In this document: one piece after another, positions 1 to 40,375 of the stretch
Layout of the letters: each line of letters opens with the position of its first letter
Numbering within the stretch: the first letter of the stretch is position 1
Assembly (NCBI GenBank): GCA_017516765.1
Contig: JAFXBE010000081.1
Span: forward strand, 1-41,307
Length of the DNA: 41,307 nt
Source of the DNA: Clostridia bacterium
GTDB taxonomy: Bacteria > Bacillota > Clostridia > Christensenellales > Aristaeellaceae
Direction: 5' to 3'
Translations under genes and position numbers: made by a program
Notes under the pieces: model-generated
Told to the model about the DNA's origin: nothing
What the model saw: only the letters and a program-made list of their open reading frames with translations
The model's database searches: none

Positions 1-175
1 ACGGCTCCCCGGGCGGCAAACGGCGATAGGAACCCCTTGCTACGCAAGGGTTCCGAAACCACCGTACACGCCGCTGGTTTCGGATTGACAATCGGAGGGC
101 TGCGGCCCTCCGATACCTCTGGGACTTCTTTGACAGTCTGACGCCATGTTTTCGTTCGAGAACATGGCGTTTTTT
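1..175 (+). repeat. Family C hairpin element, copy 1 (cut by window start)
   Basis: This non-coding stretch matches the segment at 24305-24586: both carry a proline-rich looking GC block (ctccccgggcggcaaacggc), a hairpin around ccccttgc/gcaagggtt, the string acgccgctggtttcgg, and the linker ttTGACAGTCTGA at 129-141. The linker is followed here by a strong hairpin terminator. The same linker plus a different hairpin ends the copy at 31320-31520. The first part of the element lies outside the window. Seen directly; no function is known to me. Confidence 0.7.
141..175 (+). terminator. Rho-independent terminator
   Basis: A perfect 10-bp stem (acgccatgtt at 141-150, aacatggcgt at 161-170) is followed by six T. 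It closes a gene to the left of the window and insulates the sigma-factor operon that starts at 316. It is also the terminal variable hairpin of the family C element. Confidence 0.85.
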
Positions 176-6184: not shown

Positions 6185-6326
6185 CCCGCACCCTCAGTCG
6201 GCGTACAGCCCACTAACCGTGGTCTGTACTTGCTTCGGTTGTCGACTGCGGGTCGCTAACGCCTTCGGCGTTGTGCGCACTGCGCACGCGCTTCCCGACC
6301 TCGCCCCTTGCACAGGGGAGGCTCTT
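6185..6326 (-). repeat. Family B multi-hairpin element, copy 1
   Basis: Read on the minus strand the copy runs from a family A type hairpin (cctcccctgtgcaagggg) through gtgcgcagtgcgcac, the acgccgaaggcgt hairpin, gcgacccgcagtcg, the long hairpin with constant ACGGTTAGT loop, to gactgagggtgcgg. It ends against another family A unit. Together with 6010-6180 it fills the gap between the SDR gene and the GerC-like gene. Confidence 0.8.
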
Positions 6327-10630: not shown

Positions 10631-10750
10631 GGCGACGAAAGGAAGTGCGTGCGCAGTGCGCACAACGCCAAAGGCGTCAGCGACCCGCAGTCTCGGGCCG
10701 AAGCAAGTACAGACCACGGTTAGTGGGCTGTACGCCGACTGAGGTTGCGG
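10631..10750 (+). repeat. Family B multi-hairpin element, copy 2
   Basis: Contains gtgcgcagtgcgcac, aacgccaaaggcgt, gcgacccgcagtc, the long hairpin gtacagaccac / gtgggctgtac with loop ggtta, and gactgaggttgcgg. One stem pair is mismatched (A opposite G). It fills the gap between nadE and the alpha-galactosidase promoter. Confidence 0.8.
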
Positions 10751-12663: not shown

Positions 12664-12730
12664 GGGGGTGACCTCCTTGTGTGGTGGTTTTTTTGGGGGG
12701 GAGACGGTGGGAGGCGCTGCCTCCCACACC

Positions 12731-13136
12731 CTCTGCTCAAGGGGCAATGCCCCTTGAGAATCCCGTTGCTGCGCCGCTTTGCGTCGCAGGGGAGGATTGC
12801 ATGGGGATAGGGTTGCTAAACGGGTCGGGAAAAAATGGTTGGGCGGGGCGGGCGGAATCCGTTATCACTCCTTGCCCAGCACCTGAATGAGCATACTCTT
12901 CTGCTCGTCCAGTTCCACCTTGACCAGCTTTTCCTCTGCTCAAGGGGCAATGCCCCTTGAGAATCCCGTTGCTGCGCCGCTTTGCGTCGCAGGGGAGGAT
13001 TACATGGGGATAGGGTTGTGAAACGGATCGGGAAAAGATTGTTGGGCGGGGCGGGCGGAACCCGTTATCACTCCTTGCCCAGCACCTGAATGAGCATGCT
13101 CTTCTGCTCGTCCAGTTCCACCTTGACCAGCTTTTC
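12731..13136. repeat. 203-bp tandem direct duplication covering the 3' end of the NYN gene
   Basis: 12731-12933 and 12934-13136 are the same sequence with about eight differences. Unit 2 includes the true C-terminus of the NYN protein gene; unit 1 carries a stranded copy of its last ~70 bases (12864-12933). Each unit starts with the palindrome ctcaaggggcaatgccccttgag. The string TCAAGGG occurs at 12737, 12940 and 13141, so slippage or unequal crossing over at this short homology could have made it. The gap between nadE and the NYN gene holds nothing else. Confidence 0.92.
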
Positions 13137-14309: not shown

Positions 14310-14675
14310 CTACCGGCTGTAGTCGCTGTTGCCGTTCAGCACCGCATCAATAGTGCGGCACACATCCTCAAATTGCAACCAAATCTGACGGTTGGTAAAA
14401 CGGATCACCCGCAGCCCCTGCTGCTGTAAAAATTCGCTTCGCCGCTCGTCTGCCCGGAGCGCATCTTCGTCGAAATGCTGGGAGCCGTCCAGTTCGATAA
14501 CCAGCTTGGCTTCGGGACAATAGAAATCAACGATATAGGCACCGATCATTTTTTGGCGCAGAAAGCGCATGGAATGCCTTTGCAGGAAATCATACCAGAG
14601 ATGTCTTTCTTCTTTGGTCATGTTCCGCCGCAGTTCCCGGGCGAAGGTGCGCTTCTTCAGGTAATTGGCAGGCAT
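14310..14675 (-). CDS. DUF559 / Vsr-like endonuclease-domain protein
   Basis: A 121-aa protein with the DUF559 layout: basic N-terminus, MTKEERHLWYDFL helix, then the restriction-endonuclease-like core IVDFYCPEAKLVIELDGSQH (about 52-71) followed by RVIRF. This core is related to very-short-patch-repair nucleases; the biological role of DUF559 is not settled. The start ATG at 14675 follows AAAGGAG. It lies between two copies of the family A inverted pair and is a paralogue of the gene at 17826-18266. Confidence 0.85.
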   Translation of the reverse strand: MPANYLKKRTFARELRRNMTKEERHLWYDFLQRHSMRFLRQKMIGAYIVDFYCPEAKLVIELDGSQHFDEDALRADERRSEFLQQQGLRVIRFTNRQIWLQFEDVCRTIDAVLNGNSDYSR

Positions 14676-14727: not shown

Positions 14728-15012
14728 ACCCTCAGTCAGGCTTCGCCTGCCAGCTCCCTCCAAGGAGGGAGCCTTTGGGGTGGGTTGTTTGCGGGGGTGG
14801 TCGGCGTACCCAAGCCGGAAAAAGCCCGCCGGTTGGGGCAAAGCCAACGGCGCAGGCTCCTTCCGAAGGAGGGCGAGGTCGGGAAGCGCGTGCCCAGTGG
14901 GCACAATGCCGAAGGCATTAGCGACCCGCAGTCGTCAACCGAAGCAAGTACAGACCACGGTTAGTGGGCTGTACGCCGACTGAGGTTGCGGGCCGTAGGC
15001 GGGTGAGGGTGC
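14728..15012. repeat. Family A inverted pair interrupted by family B copy 3
   Basis: 14728-14873 repeats the arrangement at 14112-14284. In the right-hand unit, the family A sequence breaks after ggaggg at 14873, continues as a complete family B element (14874-14991: gtgcccagtgggcac, atgccgaaggcat, gcgacccgcagtcgtc, long hairpin with ACGGTTAGT, gactgaggttgcgg), and resumes with gccgtaggcgggtgagggtgcc (14992-15012). The missing piece is agctccc. No gene lies in 14676-15083. Confidence 0.85.
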
Positions 15013-17825: not shown

Positions 17826-18266
17826 TCATTCGTGGGGGATGGGGAAAGGCTCCCTTGTGCAAAGGGAGCTGTCAGCGCTTGCGCTGACTGAGGGATTGTC
17901 CGCTTTCTTTTTCAAAGCCTGCTTGACTGCTGCATCGATGTAGAGACAAACGCCCTCAAAATTCTGGTTGATCTGATTGTTGGAGATTCGCAACACTTGT
18001 AGATCGTACCCTTCCAAAAAGCGGGTGCGTTCTGCATCCTTGAGCAGGTTTTCGTCGGTGTAGTGCTGGGAACCGTCCAGCTCCACCACCAAATGTGCTT
18101 TGGCACAATAGAAATCGGCGATGTAGTGTCCCAGAACCTTTTGCCGCATGAAACGCACCGGATAGCTGCGCAGGTAATCGTACCAGAGATGGCGTTCTTC
18201 CTTCGTCATATCGGAACGCAGCTGCTTTGCCAGAGGCACCAGCTGCCTGTTGTGCTTGCGCTGCAT
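17826..18266 (-). CDS. DUF559 / Vsr-like endonuclease-domain protein, second copy
   Basis: 146 aa. The core matches the protein at 14310-14675 (MTKEERHLWYDYL, IADFYCAKAHLVVELDGSQH), so they are paralogues. The C-terminus after residue about 122 is translated from a family A palindrome (17847-17900): SVSASADSSLCTREPF is simply the hairpin read as protein. The original stop codon was probably lost when the palindrome arrived. The start ATG at 18266 follows GGAGG by 8 bases. It may be co-transcribed with typA. Confidence 0.82.
   Translation of the reverse strand: MQRKHNRQLVPLAKQLRSDMTKEERHLWYDYLRSYPVRFMRQKVLGHYIADFYCAKAHLVVELDGSQHYTDENLLKDAERTRFLEGYDLQVLRISNNQINQNFEGVCLYIDAAVKQALKKKADNPSVSASADSSLCTREPFPIPHE
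17847..17900 (+). repeat. Family A palindrome (attgtcc subtype) inside a coding end
   Basis: ggctccctt / aagggagct hairpin with loop gtgca, then gtcagcgc/gcgctgac hairpin, then tgagggattgtcc. It differs from the gagggtgcc subtype in its last bases. It supplies the last codons of the DUF559 gene. Confidence 0.75.
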
Positions 18267-18295: not shown

Positions 18296-18545
18296 GCGGC
18301 TCCCTTGTGCAAAGGGAGCTGCCCCGAAGGGGCTGAGGGATTGTACCCTGCTCAGACATGCGAGCCGGGGAACAACCCTTCCGTCACGGCTTCGCCGTGC
18401 CACCGGCCCGGTCGTTCAATCGTCGCAGAGCGCACTAACCGTGCCCTCTGCTCGTTTCACTCCCCACCTGCGGGTCGCTTTGCACTTCGTGCAAGTGCCC
18501 ACTGGGCACGCGCTTCCCTCCGGTGCCTTGCACAGGGGAGGCTTT
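18296..18545 (-). repeat. Family A unit and family B copy 4
   Basis: 18296-18345 is a family A unit of the ggattgt subtype. 18405-18545, read on the minus strand, is a family B element of the second subtype: gtgcccagtgggcac, ttgcacgaagtgcaa, gcgacccgcag, gtggggagtgaaacgag, long hairpin gcagagggcac / gtgcgctctgc with loop ggtta, then gacgattga. It fills the gap between prfC and the DUF559 gene. Confidence 0.8.
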
Positions 18546-18579: not shown

Positions 18580-20181
<1,602 letters not shown>

Positions 20182-20268: not shown

Positions 20269-20460
20269 CATGGACGTTCTGCCCGCCGAAGGCGGACCGC
20301 TCGCCCCGGGAGTGGACAACAGGAGCCGCAGCTTAAAGGGGAAGGGGCCCTGCCCTTCCCCACGCTGCTTGCGTGTGGGCCCGTCCTCGCCCCTTCGGGG
20401 CTGCGTTGCGGGCCCCGCTGGGCGGGGCGGGGATATGAAAAAGCCTCCCTTGAGTAAAGG

Positions 20461-20840
20461 GCGACGAAGGGAAGTGTGTGCCCGGTGGCGACGAAGGGAA
20501 GTGTGTGCCCGGTGGCGACGAAGGGAAGTGTGTGCCCGGTGGGCACAACGGCGAAGCCGTTAACGACCCGCAGTCGTCAACCGAAACGAGTGTAGGCTAC
20601 GGCAGTAGCCTGCACGACGATTGAGGTTGCGGAACACAACGGCGAAGCCGTTAACGACCCGCAGTCGTCAACCGAAACGAGTGTAGGCTACGGCAGTAGC
20701 CTGCACGACGATTGAGGTTGCGGAACACAACGGCGAAGCCGTTAACGACCCGCAGTCGGGGAGCGAAACGAGGGCTGGGCACGGTAGTGCCCAGAACGAC
20801 GATTGAGCGATCGGGGGGTGGCTCGCCGCAAGGCGAGACG
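20461..20840 (+). repeat. Family B tandem array (copies 5-7)
   Basis: A 27-base unit (gcgacgaagggaag...cccggtg) occurs three times in a row at 20461-20541. Then a 91-base unit starting cacaacggcg occurs at 20544, 20635 and 20726. The first two 91-base units are practically identical; the third switches after cccgcagtcgg to the second subtype (ggggagcgaaacgag, hairpin ggctgggcac / gtgcccag). The array ends in a family A tail (cggagggattgtcc). A GC-rich stretch without genes (20270-20460) precedes it. Confidence 0.92.
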
Positions 20841-20892
20841 GAGGGATTGTCCCTGCGATCCCCATTGGGCGGGGGATAGATACCATTCCCCC

Positions 20893-20923
20893 AAAAAAAG
20901 AAGGCCGACACACAGTCAGCCTC
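20893..20923 (-). terminator. Terminator of the secreted protein gene
   Basis: On the minus strand aggctga (20922-20916) pairs with tcggcct (20908-20902), followed by T7 (20899-20893). It begins 8 bases after the stop. Confidence 0.8.
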
Positions 20924-20930
20924 CAATGGG

Positions 20931-21518
20931 TCAATATTCGTTGGCAATGGCTTCTTCCCGCCACTCCTGCACCAGCTGGTATACATCATAGAGATTCAGC
21001 CGTGCATGAACATAGCTGTACACTTCCCAGAACTCATCGCCGATGGGCATGTAGCCGCCCTTTTTCAAAATCGGCACGGGGTTGGGCTTGGCATCGGTAT
21101 ACAGGGTGATGTAGTAAGAGGTGCCGTCGCACACATCCCAATCCTCCCGCACCTGGAGACTGGCGATCCGCTCCGGGCTGGCAAAGGCGGCCACTCGGTC
21201 GTAGTTGTGTTGGCTCATCTGGAGGGTTGCGATGGTGACTTCCCCCTCATCAGGCAGGATGTCAGCAGCCGCATTCCCGGAGGAAGCCGGAGCAAACTCG
21301 GCGGGTACCGTAATGCGGATGGTGCCGTCGGTGTACAGATAGACCTCCGCATCGGCGCACATGGCAGGCGTGCCGTAGCCATCACCCGGGTAGTTGATGG
21401 AAAGCAGGATGGTTTCGCTCAGGGGCAGATCGTCCGGTAGGCCACCGTCGGGTTGGCTGCCAGTCAGCGGCATCAGCAGGGAAAAGAGGGCGAAAAGGAT
21501 GGCAATGAGTTTGGACAT
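20931..21518 (-). CDS. Secreted hypothetical protein, 195 aa
   Basis: Signal peptide at residues 1-20 (LIAILFALFSLLMPLTG) without a lipobox Cys. The mature protein is mostly beta-strand in appearance (ETILLSINYPGDG, AEVYLYTDGTIRITV, EGEVTIATLQM, SYYITLYTDA) with a C-terminal helix (YVHARLNLYDVYQLVQEWREE). Two cysteines only. I do not recognise a family. The ATG at 21518 has AAGGAGG. It is a single-gene unit with its own terminator. Confidence 0.75.
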   Translation of the reverse strand: MSKLIAILFALFSLLMPLTGSQPDGGLPDDLPLSETILLSINYPGDGYGTPAMCADAEVYLYTDGTIRITVPAEFAPASSGNAAADILPDEGEVTIATLQMSQHNYDRVAAFASPERIASLQVREDWDVCDGTSYYITLYTDAKPNPVPILKKGGYMPIGDEFWEVYSYVHARLNLYDVYQLVQEWREEAIANEY

Positions 21519-21670
21519 GGGTGGCCTCCTTGGAATGGAAAAATATTCTGAGATCAGTGTACCATAATCTGTCACAAAAAAGAAAGGCAGTCCTGCAACA
21601 AAGAAAGTCAATCCAAATAAAAACCCACCCCTTGCGCTCCTGAAAGGAGCACAAAGAGCGGGATTCTTAA

Positions 21671-21790
21671 GGGCGACGGAGGGAAGTGTGTGCCCGGTGG
21701 GCACTTGCGCTAAGCGCAAAACGACCCGCAGTCGTCAACCGAAACGAGTACAGGCTACGGCAGTAGCCTGTACGACGATTGAGGTTGCGG
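21671..21790 (+). repeat. Family B multi-hairpin element, copy 8
   Basis: Contains gtgcccggtgggcac, ttgcgctaagcgcaa, cgacccgcagtcgtc, an 11-bp perfect hairpin gtacaggctac / gtagcctgtac with loop ggca, and gacgattgaggttgcgg. It is enclosed by cttaagggc (21666-21674) and gcccttaag (21799-21807), the two halves of a split palindrome. The gap 21519-21854 holds otherwise only the palindrome tcaggggcaggcccctga (21814-21832). Confidence 0.85.
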
Positions 21791-21854
21791 ACACTTGGCC
21801 CTTAAGCGGGGTTGTCAGGGGCAGGCCCCTGACCCCTGCGGAGCAGAAAAGCGT

Positions 21855-22277
21855 TTACCCGTCCTGACGGGCGCCGAAGTTGACGGCGGTATCGCCCTGC
21901 TGGTTGGCGCCGAACTCATAGTCCTTGCCGGGCAGCACAGCGTTCATGAAGATACCCACCAGAGCGGCCACAGCCAGACCGGACAGGCTGATGTTCACCT
22001 TGCCGATGGTGAAGGCGATGGGAGCGGTGTAGTGGATGCCGATGGCCAGCACCAGAATAACGGCGGCAACCAGCACGTTGCGGCTCTTGGTGAAGTCCAC
22101 CTTGTTTTCCACCACGTTTCGCACACCCACGGCAGAGATCATGCCGTAGAGCACCATGCTGACGCCGCCCATGGTGGCGGTGGGCATGGCAACGATGAGA
22201 GCGGCGAACTTGGGGCAGAAGCTGAGCAGGATGGCGAACACGGCAGCCAGACGGACCACCATGGGATCGAATACCTT
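21855..22277 (-). pseudogene. C-terminal remnant of an NCS2 uracil-permease-type transporter
   Basis: About 140 residues match the C-terminal third of uracil/xanthine permeases: KVFDPMVVRLAAVFAIL, CPKFAALI, TATMGGVSMVLYGMI, SRNVLVAAVILVLAIG, then the last two membrane helices. The normal protein has about 420 residues and twelve or more helices; the first two thirds are missing. The reading frame breaks exactly where the terminator of the next gene (22281-22323) begins. There is no start signal, so this is a deletion remnant. It may still be read from the upstream transcript if the terminator leaks. Confidence 0.85.
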
Positions 22278-22338: not shown

Positions 22339-24024
22339 TTATTCGGCGGCAGGCATAAAGGCGTAGGTGCCGGCGGCGGTGAGGGTGAAGGTCAGCTTTC
22401 CATCTTCCATGACATAGGGCAGCTCGGTGAGGGTGCCATCCTCCATGAGCATGACCAGTCTGGTACCGGTCAGCATGGCTGTGGTCTCCTCATCGCAGGT
22501 CAGCTGTACTTCCACTGCGCAGGGCAGCTCCGCTTCTTCGCCGTTCAGCGTCATGACGGTACGGTATACGCTGATGGCATTCTCAAGGGCAGCATCGAAT
22601 GTCCGGCGGTTCAGACATTCCTCCAGCACCAGCTGAGCGCCTTCGGGAATGTTCTCCTCCGTGAAGGTAAGTGTCGCTGCTTCGTAGAAGGCAGCCTTTT
22701 CGCACACGGTGCAGATGCCGTCCGTGTATTTGTGACCGGCAGGTGCCGGGTAATCCACATAGGAATGGCCGCAGCTGCTGCAGGTGAAGCGACGCTTGCC
22801 TTCCTCGGTGCAGGTACGGGCCTTGAGCACCTCCTTCTGGTACTGGTGACCGGGAGAGGGCAGAACCTGCACGTAGCTGTCGCCGCAGTTGTAGCAGGTG
22901 AAGCGGAGCACGCCGTCCTCGGTGCAGGTGGGCTGGGAGGTGATATCCTCGCCGTAGTCATGCCCCGTGGCGTCAACGGATTCTTCCGCCAGCACAGCGC
23001 CACAATCGGAGCAGATCTGCTGCTGCTTGCCATCGGTGCTGCAGGTGGGGCTCTGTGTCTCCTGCCAGGAGCTGTTGGCGTGGGCGCAGGAGCCGGCACC
23101 GCAAACGGTGCAGATGCCGTTGACGGTGTTATGTCCGGGGGATGCGATCACATCGCTGTAGGTATCGCCGCAGTTGTAGCAGGTGAAGCGGACAACGCCA
23201 TCCTCGGTGCAGGTGGGCTGGGAGACGATATCCTCGCCGTAGTCATGCCCCGGGGCGGCAACGGAGTCTTCCGCCAGCACAGCGCCGCAGTCGGAGCAGA
23301 TCTGCTGCTGCTTGCCATCGGTGCTGCAGGTGGGGCTCTGGGTCTCCTGCCAGGAGGCATTGGCGTGGGCGCAGGAGCCGGCACCGCAAACGGTGCAGAT
23401 GCCGTTGACGGTGTTATGTCCGGGGGATGCGATCACATCGCTGTAGGTATCGCCGCAGTTGTAGCAGGTGAAGCGGACAACGCCGTCCTCGGTGCAGGTG
23501 GGCTGGGAGACGATATCCTCGCCGTAGTCATGCCCCGTGGCGGCAACGTAGTCTTCCGCCAGCACAGCGCCGCAGTCGGAGCAGATCTGCTGCTGCTTGC
23601 CATCGGTGCTGCAGGTGGGGCTCTGGGTCTCCTGCCAGGAGGTGTTGGCGTGGGTGCAGGAGCCGGCACCACAAATGGTGCAGATGCCGTTGACGGTGTT
23701 GTGTCCGAGGGATGGGATCACAACGCTGTAGGTATCGCCGCAGTTGTAGCAGGTGAAGCGCTCAACGCCGTCCTCGGTGCAGGTGGGCTCGGAGGCGATA
23801 TCCTCGCCGTAGTCATGCCCCGTGGCGTCAACGTATTCTTCCATCAGCACAGCGCCGCAGTCGGAGCAGATCCGCTGCAGCTTGCCATCGGTGCTGCAGG
23901 TGGGGCTCTGTGTCTCCTGCCAGGAGCTGTTGGCGTGTGCGCAGGACTCCTCGCCCAAAGCACAGGTCGTACCTGCTGTTACAAGCAGGCAAACAACAAA
24001 AAGAACAGAGAGCAGTTTTTTCAT
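22339..24024 (-). CDS. Secreted CxxC repeat protein, 561 aa
   Basis: Signal peptide at residues 1-24 (LLSVLFVVCLLVTAGTTCALG). Residues 27-406 hold four repeats of 95 residues, each with CSTDG, ICSDCG, GHDYG, CTEDG, FTCYNCG and ICTVCG, that is three CxxC pairs per repeat plus single Cys-Thr and GH motifs. Two short further modules follow (CTEEG, TCSSCG, ICTVC), then a C-terminal beta-rich domain (about 430-561) without Cys pairs. Similar CxxC/GH repeats are common in surface proteins of gut Bacillota; binding of metal is likely, function unknown. The ATG at 24024 gives the signal peptide. A consensus promoter lies upstream. Confidence 0.85.
   Translation of the reverse strand: MKKLLSVLFVVCLLVTAGTTCALGEESCAHANSSWQETQSPTCSTDGKLQRICSDCGAVLMEEYVDATGHDYGEDIASEPTCTEDGVERFTCYNCGDTYSVVIPSLGHNTVNGICTICGAGSCTHANTSWQETQSPTCSTDGKQQQICSDCGAVLAEDYVAATGHDYGEDIVSQPTCTEDGVVRFTCYNCGDTYSDVIASPGHNTVNGICTVCGAGSCAHANASWQETQSPTCSTDGKQQQICSDCGAVLAEDSVAAPGHDYGEDIVSQPTCTEDGVVRFTCYNCGDTYSDVIASPGHNTVNGICTVCGAGSCAHANSSWQETQSPTCSTDGKQQQICSDCGAVLAEESVDATGHDYGEDITSQPTCTEDGVLRFTCYNCGDSYVQVLPSPGHQYQKEVLKARTCTEEGKRRFTCSSCGHSYVDYPAPAGHKYTDGICTVCEKAAFYEAATLTFTEENIPEGAQLVLEECLNRRTFDAALENAISVYRTVMTLNGEEAELPCAVEVQLTCDEETTAMLTGTRLVMLMEDGTLTELPYVMEDGKLTFTLTAAGTYAFMPAAE
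22807..23946 (-). repeat. 285-bp coding tandem repeat, four units
   Basis: Markers such as cttgccatcg recur at 23026, 23311, 23596 and 23881, exactly 285 bases apart. The two middle units are nearly identical at the base level; the outer two have drifted more, and the last ends early. This points to recent unit duplication or gene conversion. Confidence 0.95.
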
Positions 24025-24193: not shown

Positions 24194-24586
24194 AAGCCCC
24201 CTCCCGGCTTGGGAGGGGGCTTCAGGTCGTCAAAAAACACGCCTGCGGCGGCTTTTTTGACGAGACTACCGTCATCTGCATTGCACCGTTTGCCTACGAG
24301 CCCTTGGCTCCCCGGGCGGCAAACGGCGGGCTACCGCCTTCCTTTCTGAACCCCTTGCTGCGCAAGGGTTCCGAAACCATCGGAAGGGTGAACGCAGTGA
24401 ACCGAGGCGTGAGGACAGCGCGATAGCGCTCCCACAGCGCCGAAGCCCAAAGCCGACCACAGGTCGGCTTTGGGCCGCAATGCACGCCGCTGGTTTCGGT
24501 TTGGCAATTGGAGGGCCGCGGCCCGACCACACCTCTGAAGTTTGTCAACAGTCTGAGCCGCAGGGAACAAATCCCCCGCGGCTCCT
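24194..24586 (+). repeat. Family C hairpin element, copy 2 (longest)
   Basis: Order: hairpin gccccctccc / gggagggggc (24196-24220); linker tcaggtcGTCAAAAAA with partner TTTTTTGACgagac (24229-24276); the block ctccccgggcggcaaacggc shared with copy 1; hairpin ccccttgc/gcaagggg; an extra ~115 bases absent from copy 1, with an imperfect hairpin cccaaagccgacc / ggtcggctttggg; acgccgctggtttcgg; and the linker tttgtcaaCAGTCTGA with a final hairpin gagccgc/gcggctc. Fills the gap between the CxxC protein promoter and the antiporter gene. Confidence 0.8.
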
Positions 24587-31142: not shown

Positions 31143-31200
31143 TGGCACACAATTAGGCATGCAAAGTGTAGTGTGCTATACTTTTTGTGGGCACTACTGC
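31143..31200 (+). repeat. 58-bp direct repeat, left copy
   Basis: Matches 40318-40375 over 58 bases with about eight differences; the core gcatgcaaagtgtagtgtg is identical. The sequence holds a TGnTATACT-like extended -10 (31176-31182). Copies lie at the two ends of the 31-40 kb accessory stretch, in the same orientation. Confidence 0.8.
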
Positions 31201-40317: not shown

Positions 40318-40375
40318 TGGCACACAACTTTGCATGCAAAGTGTAGTGTGTTATACCTTTTGTGGGCGCTGCCGC
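40318..40375 (+). repeat. 58-bp direct repeat, right copy
   Basis: Same sequence as 31143-31200 with about eight differences, same orientation. In this copy ttTGCATGCAAA is palindromic. The rest of the 40226-40578 gap has a short GC palindrome (aggggctccgcccct, 40265-40279) and an imperfect hairpin gcaggaatgcct / aggcatcctgc (40502-40539) that may end leftward transcription. Confidence 0.8.

Follow-up and report, generated by a model that had tools for sequence, protein, structure and literature searches.

Element B in the window

The window, a stretch of 41,307 nucleotides from a Clostridia bacterium (source genome G000), carries several copies of a non-coding element of about 117 nt, here called B, of which the source genome holds some fifty. 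Scanning the window with the covariance model R2 gave eight matches on both strands (E values 9e-30 to 3.2e-10), corresponding to six complete copies and two 3′ parts (Table 1). R2 was built from 51 copies, window sequences among them; these matches therefore serve to locate the element and are not an independent discovery. Direct reading together with the R2 matches showed that all eight places named in a preliminary description of this DNA are real, and that the copies indeed lie in both orientations. The same description had placed the copies always in intergenic space; none of the eight overlaps a called gene (home-made gene caller), and the genes adjoining them are ordinary chromosomal ones where named. 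It had also recognised no named family that fits, and Rfam 15 likewise gave no family at the gathering cut-off in the window and none at E up to 1 in 20400-21860.

In the source genome, BLAST with one copy as the query returned 51 matches, fragments counted. An anchor scan of the fetched stretches gave 51 rows, two of which are by eye chance hits in coding sequence. Many B matches sit at contig ends of the source assembly, as would be expected of a repeat that breaks the assembly. A synteny comparison at 21672 found no match on the left side.

Table 1. Copies and parts of element B in the window, with the host repeat of the array
Feature	Position	Strand	Evidence
Complete copy, within A-type palindromic repeat	6186..6302	-	R2 116.1 bits; flanks read
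Complete copy, within C-type palindromic repeat, left arm GGCATGGG, right arm ATCCCCCTGC	10634..10750	+	R2 106.5 bits; flanks read
Complete copy, within A-type repeat (GAAGGAGGG|B)	14875..14991	+	R2 121.7 bits; flanks read
Complete copy, second subfamily (ACCGG...ACCGGG), within A-type repeat downstream of prfC	18408..18524	-	R2 118.6 bits
Left half of array's A-type host repeat (AAGCCTCCCTTGAGTAAAGGG)	20441..20461	+	sequence
5′ part, outermost nested copy	20463..20488	+	sequence
5′ part, middle nested copy	20490..20515	+	sequence
Complete innermost copy	20517..20632	+	R2 133.5 bits
3′ part, middle nested copy, resumes at CAC of hairpin 1	20635..20723	+	R2 match 20641-20723, 65.5 bits
3′ part, outermost nested copy, domain II of second subfamily	20726..20814	+	R2 match 20732-20814, 50.6 bits
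Right half of array's A-type host repeat	20815..20850	+	sequence
Complete copy, within palindrome TTAAGGG|B|CCCTTAA	21675..21790	+	R2 134.2 bits; flanks read

The array at 20461-20840

This array had been described as three copies. It is not a tandem of three: three 5′ parts are followed by three 3′ parts (the last ending at about 20814; Table 1), so that two lone 26-nt 5′ parts precede a complete copy and two further 3′ parts come after it. Each split lies in the first hairpin, at GTGCCCGGTGG|, and the outermost 3′ part differs in subfamily from the inner 3′ parts. Judged from the sequence, this arrangement is best understood as a set of nested copies, and such nested arrays may record the order of insertion.

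The break in hairpin 1 is found again in further genomes of the genus; in genus g14 there are 2+2 and 3+3 arrays, with junctions of their own. Fourteen arrays have both ends visible, leaving aside the truncated L129, L157, L191 and L199 and the mixed arrays; eight have equal numbers of 5′ and 3′ parts and six unequal numbers, the latter perhaps through losses between the 27-bp or 91-bp direct repeats. Pair 13-51 (columns of the alignment described below) agrees with nested order in 10 of 11 scored arrays and with sequential order in 8 of 11, 13 loci with mixed or neighbouring elements having been set aside and arrays of like pattern merged, L111 among them. The pair discriminates between the two orders in only two arrays, L156 and L111, where outer pairs with outer. 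A second self-site, CCGMAGGTG|C, is present in some copies, Candidatus Limiplasma among them.

Predicted fold and covariation

Minimum-energy folds of six copies had z-scores from -2.5 to -5.5. Five of the six single-sequence folds pointed to a better model than that of the preliminary description or our first fold, S1; the minimum-energy structure of the window copy at 10634-10750, in which CAACC is replaced, has a closure resembling that of the preliminary description. The comparative analysis used alignment A1, which comprises 51 copies below 94% identity, selected from 92 distinct copies at the fetched loci. Mutual information calculated on A1 with no structure assumed was highest in the second hairpin, in the long hairpin and at 75-111; the non-canonical pair 77-107 also scored highly (G·A in 26 copies, A·C in 22).

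The fold S2 is predicted to have two domains with conserved G·A contacts. Domain I (columns 1-63) is closed by a GAC/GTC helix, ACC/GGT in the second subfamily, followed by an internal loop with G4·A60 in 51/51 and A6·G58 in 50/51 copies. Further in are a GGG/CCC helix, a loop with A11·G53 in 51/51, a GY/RC helix and then a junction bearing two hairpins. Domain II (columns 67-119) consists of a CAACC/GGTTG helix, tandem G·A contacts (G72·A114 in 51/51, A73·G113 in 50/51) and then the long hairpin. On A1, S2 leaves 94.0% of cells paired, with two-sided changes within the genus in 31 of its 39 pairs; pair 31-49, for example, is changed on both sides in 25/51 rows and pair 81-103 in 19/51. Its covariation score is 0.430 against a shuffled mean of 0.141, and none of 500 shuffles reached the observed values. 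Sliding the partners by 1-3 columns reduced the score to at most 0.064.

Related sequences inflate covariation scores, and changes were therefore counted on FastTree trees. The genus tree gave 85 concerted pair-keeping events in variable pairs, compared with 4.6 on average, and never more than 28, for re-dealt partners; the tree of other genera gave 107 (re-dealt mean 5.5, maximum 26). The other-genera alignment, A3, retained 44 of 71 matches (75 bits or more, repeated loci removed). RNAalifold, applied to a MAFFT alignment of 44 other-genera copies, recovered the same core fold de novo, without the GAC/GTC helix, and each of the 32 pairs that it predicted showed a two-sided change in one copy or more. 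The other-genera alignment fitted to R2 also agrees with the fold, but leans to the model. Helix 1-3/61-63 is weaker, with 88.2% paired in the genus and 74.4% outside. In L247, L250, L255 and L318 the stem GG-AA-G/C-GA-CC has its two arms exchanged, as read from the alignment. G·T outnumbers A·C by 35 to 16 in the genus and by 47 to 33 outside it; this excess points modestly to the given strand and does not distinguish RNA from single-stranded DNA.

These sequence comparisons support selection on structure in element B. The preliminary description had proposed exactly this, that pairing is kept while sequence changes, and the second hairpin and the long hairpin do vary on both sides, above the shuffled, slid and re-dealt controls. 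Its covarying hairpins stand; its exact fold was partly wrong, and S2 differs in having two domains. The closure that it drew, CCGCA/GAGGTTGCGG (CCGCA/TGCGG), has no pair with a two-sided change, and GGTTG pairs with CAACC instead; its base CAGTCG/CGACTG likewise contains no such pair. Both this closure and S1 were dropped in favour of S2.

Insertion sites and junctions

A feature absent from the preliminary description is the setting of the copies, which lie 3′ of GG and often within another hairpin. GG occurs at most 4 bases to the left of B in 54/57 non-redundant genus flanks (121 before reduction), against a background of 0.24, and at the left flank in 42/44 copies outside the genus. The two flanks can form a stem with each other of at least 6 bp in 26 of 65 cases (90 before flanks at least 75% alike were dropped), compared with a mean of 9.8 and a maximum of 21 in 10,000 right-flank permutations; 39 of the 65 flank pairs have no 6-bp stem. 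Outside the genus such a stem is found in 10/44 (permuted 2.4, maximum 9), although some of these hosts are one repeat family, and 64 of 10,000 permutations reached the observed mean. A looser test by duplex energy was not significant (p 0.11).

Host palindromes were found whole in the fetched DNA in 9 E-type, 18 K-type, 3 C-type, 3 A1-type and 8 A2-type contexts; the count of “interrupted” E-type sites mixes in A1-type sites and was left unused. A given host site is thus known both intact and split by B, as in a non-autonomous mobile element. Downstream of prfC (a gene with RF3 domains), the A repeat is unsplit in the relatives G005 and G009 and is split by B in the source genome. Both relatives share the neighbouring small gene with the source genome, at 73% DNA identity, and their A repeats may be the same insertion as that of the source genome. 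Among 14 relatives compared over 330 bases downstream of prfC (G008 and G012 left out), a B anchor was present in G007 only, in another setting. The palindromic repeat families A, C, D, E and K (window 67-121, 24483-24537, the 4855 region and many other loci) host B and also occur without it. Near position 1832 of L032, the B site of an A-type repeat is occupied by another small insert (CGACAGAGCCTC...).

The cleanest junctions, obtained by comparison with whole A repeats, are L080 (AAAGGG|C GACGA...ACCGG|AGGTGGC) and L094 (AAGGGG|TT GACGG...TTGCGG|AGCTGTC). Sites in hairpin 1 and K-type sites have A or C in place of the third G, and AA after TTGCGG; A-type sites of the source genome have GCCGTAG at the right end instead. 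The variable junction bases are M at the left and AA, AG, GT, AC or GCCGTAG at the right. Inspection of the ends of A1 and of whole/split pairs revealed neither terminal inverted repeats nor target duplication.

Distribution and gene context

Of 300 genomes sampled from the family, 112 had R2 matches, and these represent 19 of 50 genera. An order-wide R2 scan found matches in 15/396 genomes, 14 of them of the same family, and the match in G367 is borderline (E 9.2e-4). Within the genus, G002, G003 and G014 have no R2 match. The titles of a pattern scan name, among the matches listed, Candidatus Limiplasma and gut Clostridia; four of the matches listed are in unrelated groups and look like chance. 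Phages, plasmids and E. coli were searched for B with no match, and searches of the open-licence PMC literature brought up no printed description that we recognised as B. A B-like element is present at L256:6760-6870 on a contig of a viral collection (IMGVR_UViG_3300010163_002686), which may be bacterial.

The 88 parsed matches divide into 55 that could be placed relative to genes, 29 too near a contig or locus edge and four overlapping called genes; three of these four are from unrelated genomes and likely chance, and the fourth is L187. The placed matches run against both neighbours in 21 cases and with both in 15, with 12 between convergent and seven between divergent genes, a split that gives B no fixed orientation; the count takes array members singly and includes one likely chance hit, L154. 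In a complete g26 genome, two copies (L317:18554-18672 and 18723-18843) lie between AAGGAGGG and an ATG, as if inserted into a ribosome-binding site.

Search for a mover

The preliminary description had regarded a linked transposase as the mark of a mobile element. We found no linked enzyme, and the case for mobility rests on the insertion sites and the nesting. Y1 transposases are absent from the source genome and present in 8/17 genus genomes, the B-rich G001, G009, G010 and G012 not among them; ten fetched Y1 loci had no B copy nearby. Reverse transcriptase (RVT_1) was not found in the source genome and matched in 4/17 genus genomes, three over the cut-off. IS110 transposase gave one match in the source genome and matches in 4/17 genus genomes, and was absent from G001, G005, G006, G010 and G012. 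RAYT/IS200, reverse transcriptase and IS110 were accordingly rejected as movers, being absent from, or not tracking with, B-bearing genomes. TnpB over the cut-off was found in none of 17 genus genomes (one sub-threshold match in G014), and a guide-RNA reading of B, in which the G-run on the left would be the TAM and the right flank the guide, was dropped on that ground. IS607 transposase over the cut-off was found in 0/300 family genomes; weaker serine-recombinase matches were absent from the B-rich G005, G006 and G010.

An autonomous form of B with a gene between its domains was sought in the fetched stretches of DNA, and none was seen there; the “alone” tokens of that scan (5/118 and 57/171) are by eye divergent copies or chance. 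The 5.6-kb gap between two g14 arrays was considered as a composite element and set aside, the array flanks being alike; its ORFs were listed only.

Comparison with known systems

TnpB guide RNAs (omega RNA, RAGATH-18-derived RNA) are mobile, structured and non-coding, and end at the right border of the element. B is like them in general features and unlike them in that TnpB is missing at the cut-off from all 17 genus genomes. Group IIC introns insert at hairpins and are far longer than B; a further difference is the lack of a reverse transcriptase in the source genome. B is also unlike a classical MITE, having no terminal inverted repeats and no target duplication.

The bcr1-type repeats of the Bacillus cereus group are small, non-coding, confined to one lineage and present in tens of copies per genome, with mobile features, a mover that is unknown and, for bcr repeats, a tie to a TTTAT motif (PMC6542083); bcr1 is listed as a structured family in a second report (PMC2267715). 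B resembles bcr1 as a small dispersed, lineage-confined non-coding repeat with tens of copies per genome and mobile features, and differs in having GG at its left border (54/57) instead of TTTAT, in nesting in itself and in its fold. The REP/BIME repeats associated with RAYT are described in PMC3733652 as palindromic intergenic repeats that form composite arrays and are likely read as folded single strands. B is likewise palindromic, intergenic and found in composite arrays, and is likely read as a folded single strand; unlike REP/BIME it has about 117 nt in two domains, its source genome lacks Y1, and no GTAG or CGTC tag was seen at its ends.

For IS607, PMC6188088 reports (G)GG targets, a terminal GG, no inverted repeats and no duplication. 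The target features of B are IS607-like, both in the flanks (54/57 and 42/44) and at the L080 and L094 junctions; its covarying fold, and the lack of IS607 transposase (0/300) and TnpB (0/17) over the cut-off, set it apart. Structured-RNA candidates mined from human microbiomes, covarying intergenic motifs, comprise 3161 intergenic candidates in PMC8040213, and B may already be an unnamed entry among them.

Interpretation

We consider B to be a structure-conserved non-coding repeat and, probably, a non-autonomous mobile element that an enzyme recognises as a folded single strand and inserts 3′ of GG. This draws on what is observed: covariation, GG to the left of B, palindromes split by B, a split point that recurs among the arrays, an A repeat left unsplit in two relatives, and spread through the family. 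The structure-conserved element is well supported, and the evidence of insertion and self-nesting is good. The splits would then mark places where B had inserted into another B or into a different repeat, and a trans-acting enzyme would move B by reading its folded strand, be it RNA or ssDNA; apart from insertion next to GG, the mechanism is something we infer. An enzyme outside the tested families would read the folded single strand of B and place it 3′ of GG, often in hairpins, the first hairpin of B included, and insertion of B into B would yield the nested arrays. We file B as a further case of the non-autonomous dispersed mobile repeats, outside every family tested. In a bolder version, which we hold only tentatively, B is a selfish family-wide element. 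Its substrate would be the two-domain folded strand, as RNA or ssDNA, recognised more by shape than by sequence, and its enzyme would belong to none of the five tested families. It would home to G-runs in hairpins, including its own, and build up like a Russian doll.

The fold could instead be kept for a cellular role, with B a functional structured RNA family (a small RNA or untranslated-region element) whose copies are spread by duplication or by other elements. The conserved G·A contacts are RNA-like, G·T is commoner than A·C on the given strand and some g26 copies sit in leaders, between AAGGAGGG and the start codon (L317); yet the 55 placed matches have no fixed orientation to genes, roughly 50 copies in each genome, with nesting among them, are not what such a family would show, and Rfam has no match, so that we regard this reading as rather unlikely. 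Replication slippage or unequal crossing-over, in place of self-insertion, would account for unequal part numbers in 6/14 arrays, and the 27-bp and 91-bp direct repeats invite it. Tandem arrays of 5′ parts and of 3′ parts would, however, have to arise adjacently, at the same break, at many loci and in two genera; the differing subfamilies of outer and inner parts and the outer-with-outer pairing at 13-51 in L156 and L111 also count against slippage, to which we give little credence.

Less probable again is a cruciform or hairpin repeat acting at the DNA level, like REP/BIME arrays, and kept for chromosome or termination roles. B is always accompanied by other palindromic repeats and its hosts are G-runs and hairpins, but a cruciform needs less than a strand-specific two-domain fold with internal loops, the source genome has no Y1 transposase and presence is lineage-specific. 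As for a miniature IS607-type derivative, in which element and target would have a GG in common and be joined across it by a serine transposase, the (G)GG target, the GG at the right end of B and the absence of inverted repeats and target duplication are as reported for IS607 (PMC6188088), and the L080 and L094 junctions fit X-GG-[B]-GG-Y. We nevertheless think this very improbable: the transposase is over the cut-off in none of 300 genomes, weaker serine-recombinase matches are missing from B-rich G005, G006 and G010, the source-genome junctions carry extra bases and an enzyme reading a duplex leaves the covarying fold unexplained.

Taken as a mobile repeat, B represents a widespread family of elements (112/300 sampled genomes) with a defined predicted fold and target, for which no mover was found among the tested families. 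The enzyme, if found, would show how a transposition system reads fold over sequence.

Other repeats and ORFs in the window

Four direct repeats of 300 nt at 285-nt spacing occupy 22847-24001, inside an ORF (22339-23958) that has only weak Pfam matches. The window also contains a 203-nt tandem duplication, 96% identical, at 12730-13135, and two pairs of dispersed direct repeats: one of 158 nt (14464-14621 and 18052-18209; 72% identical, 3.6 kb apart) and one of 58 nt (31143-31200 and 40318-40375; 86% identical, about 9 kb apart). The ORF at 21855-22262 matches the last fifth only of the xanthine/uracil permease family (profile 311-385 of 389), and DNA similar to it is found in several relatives.
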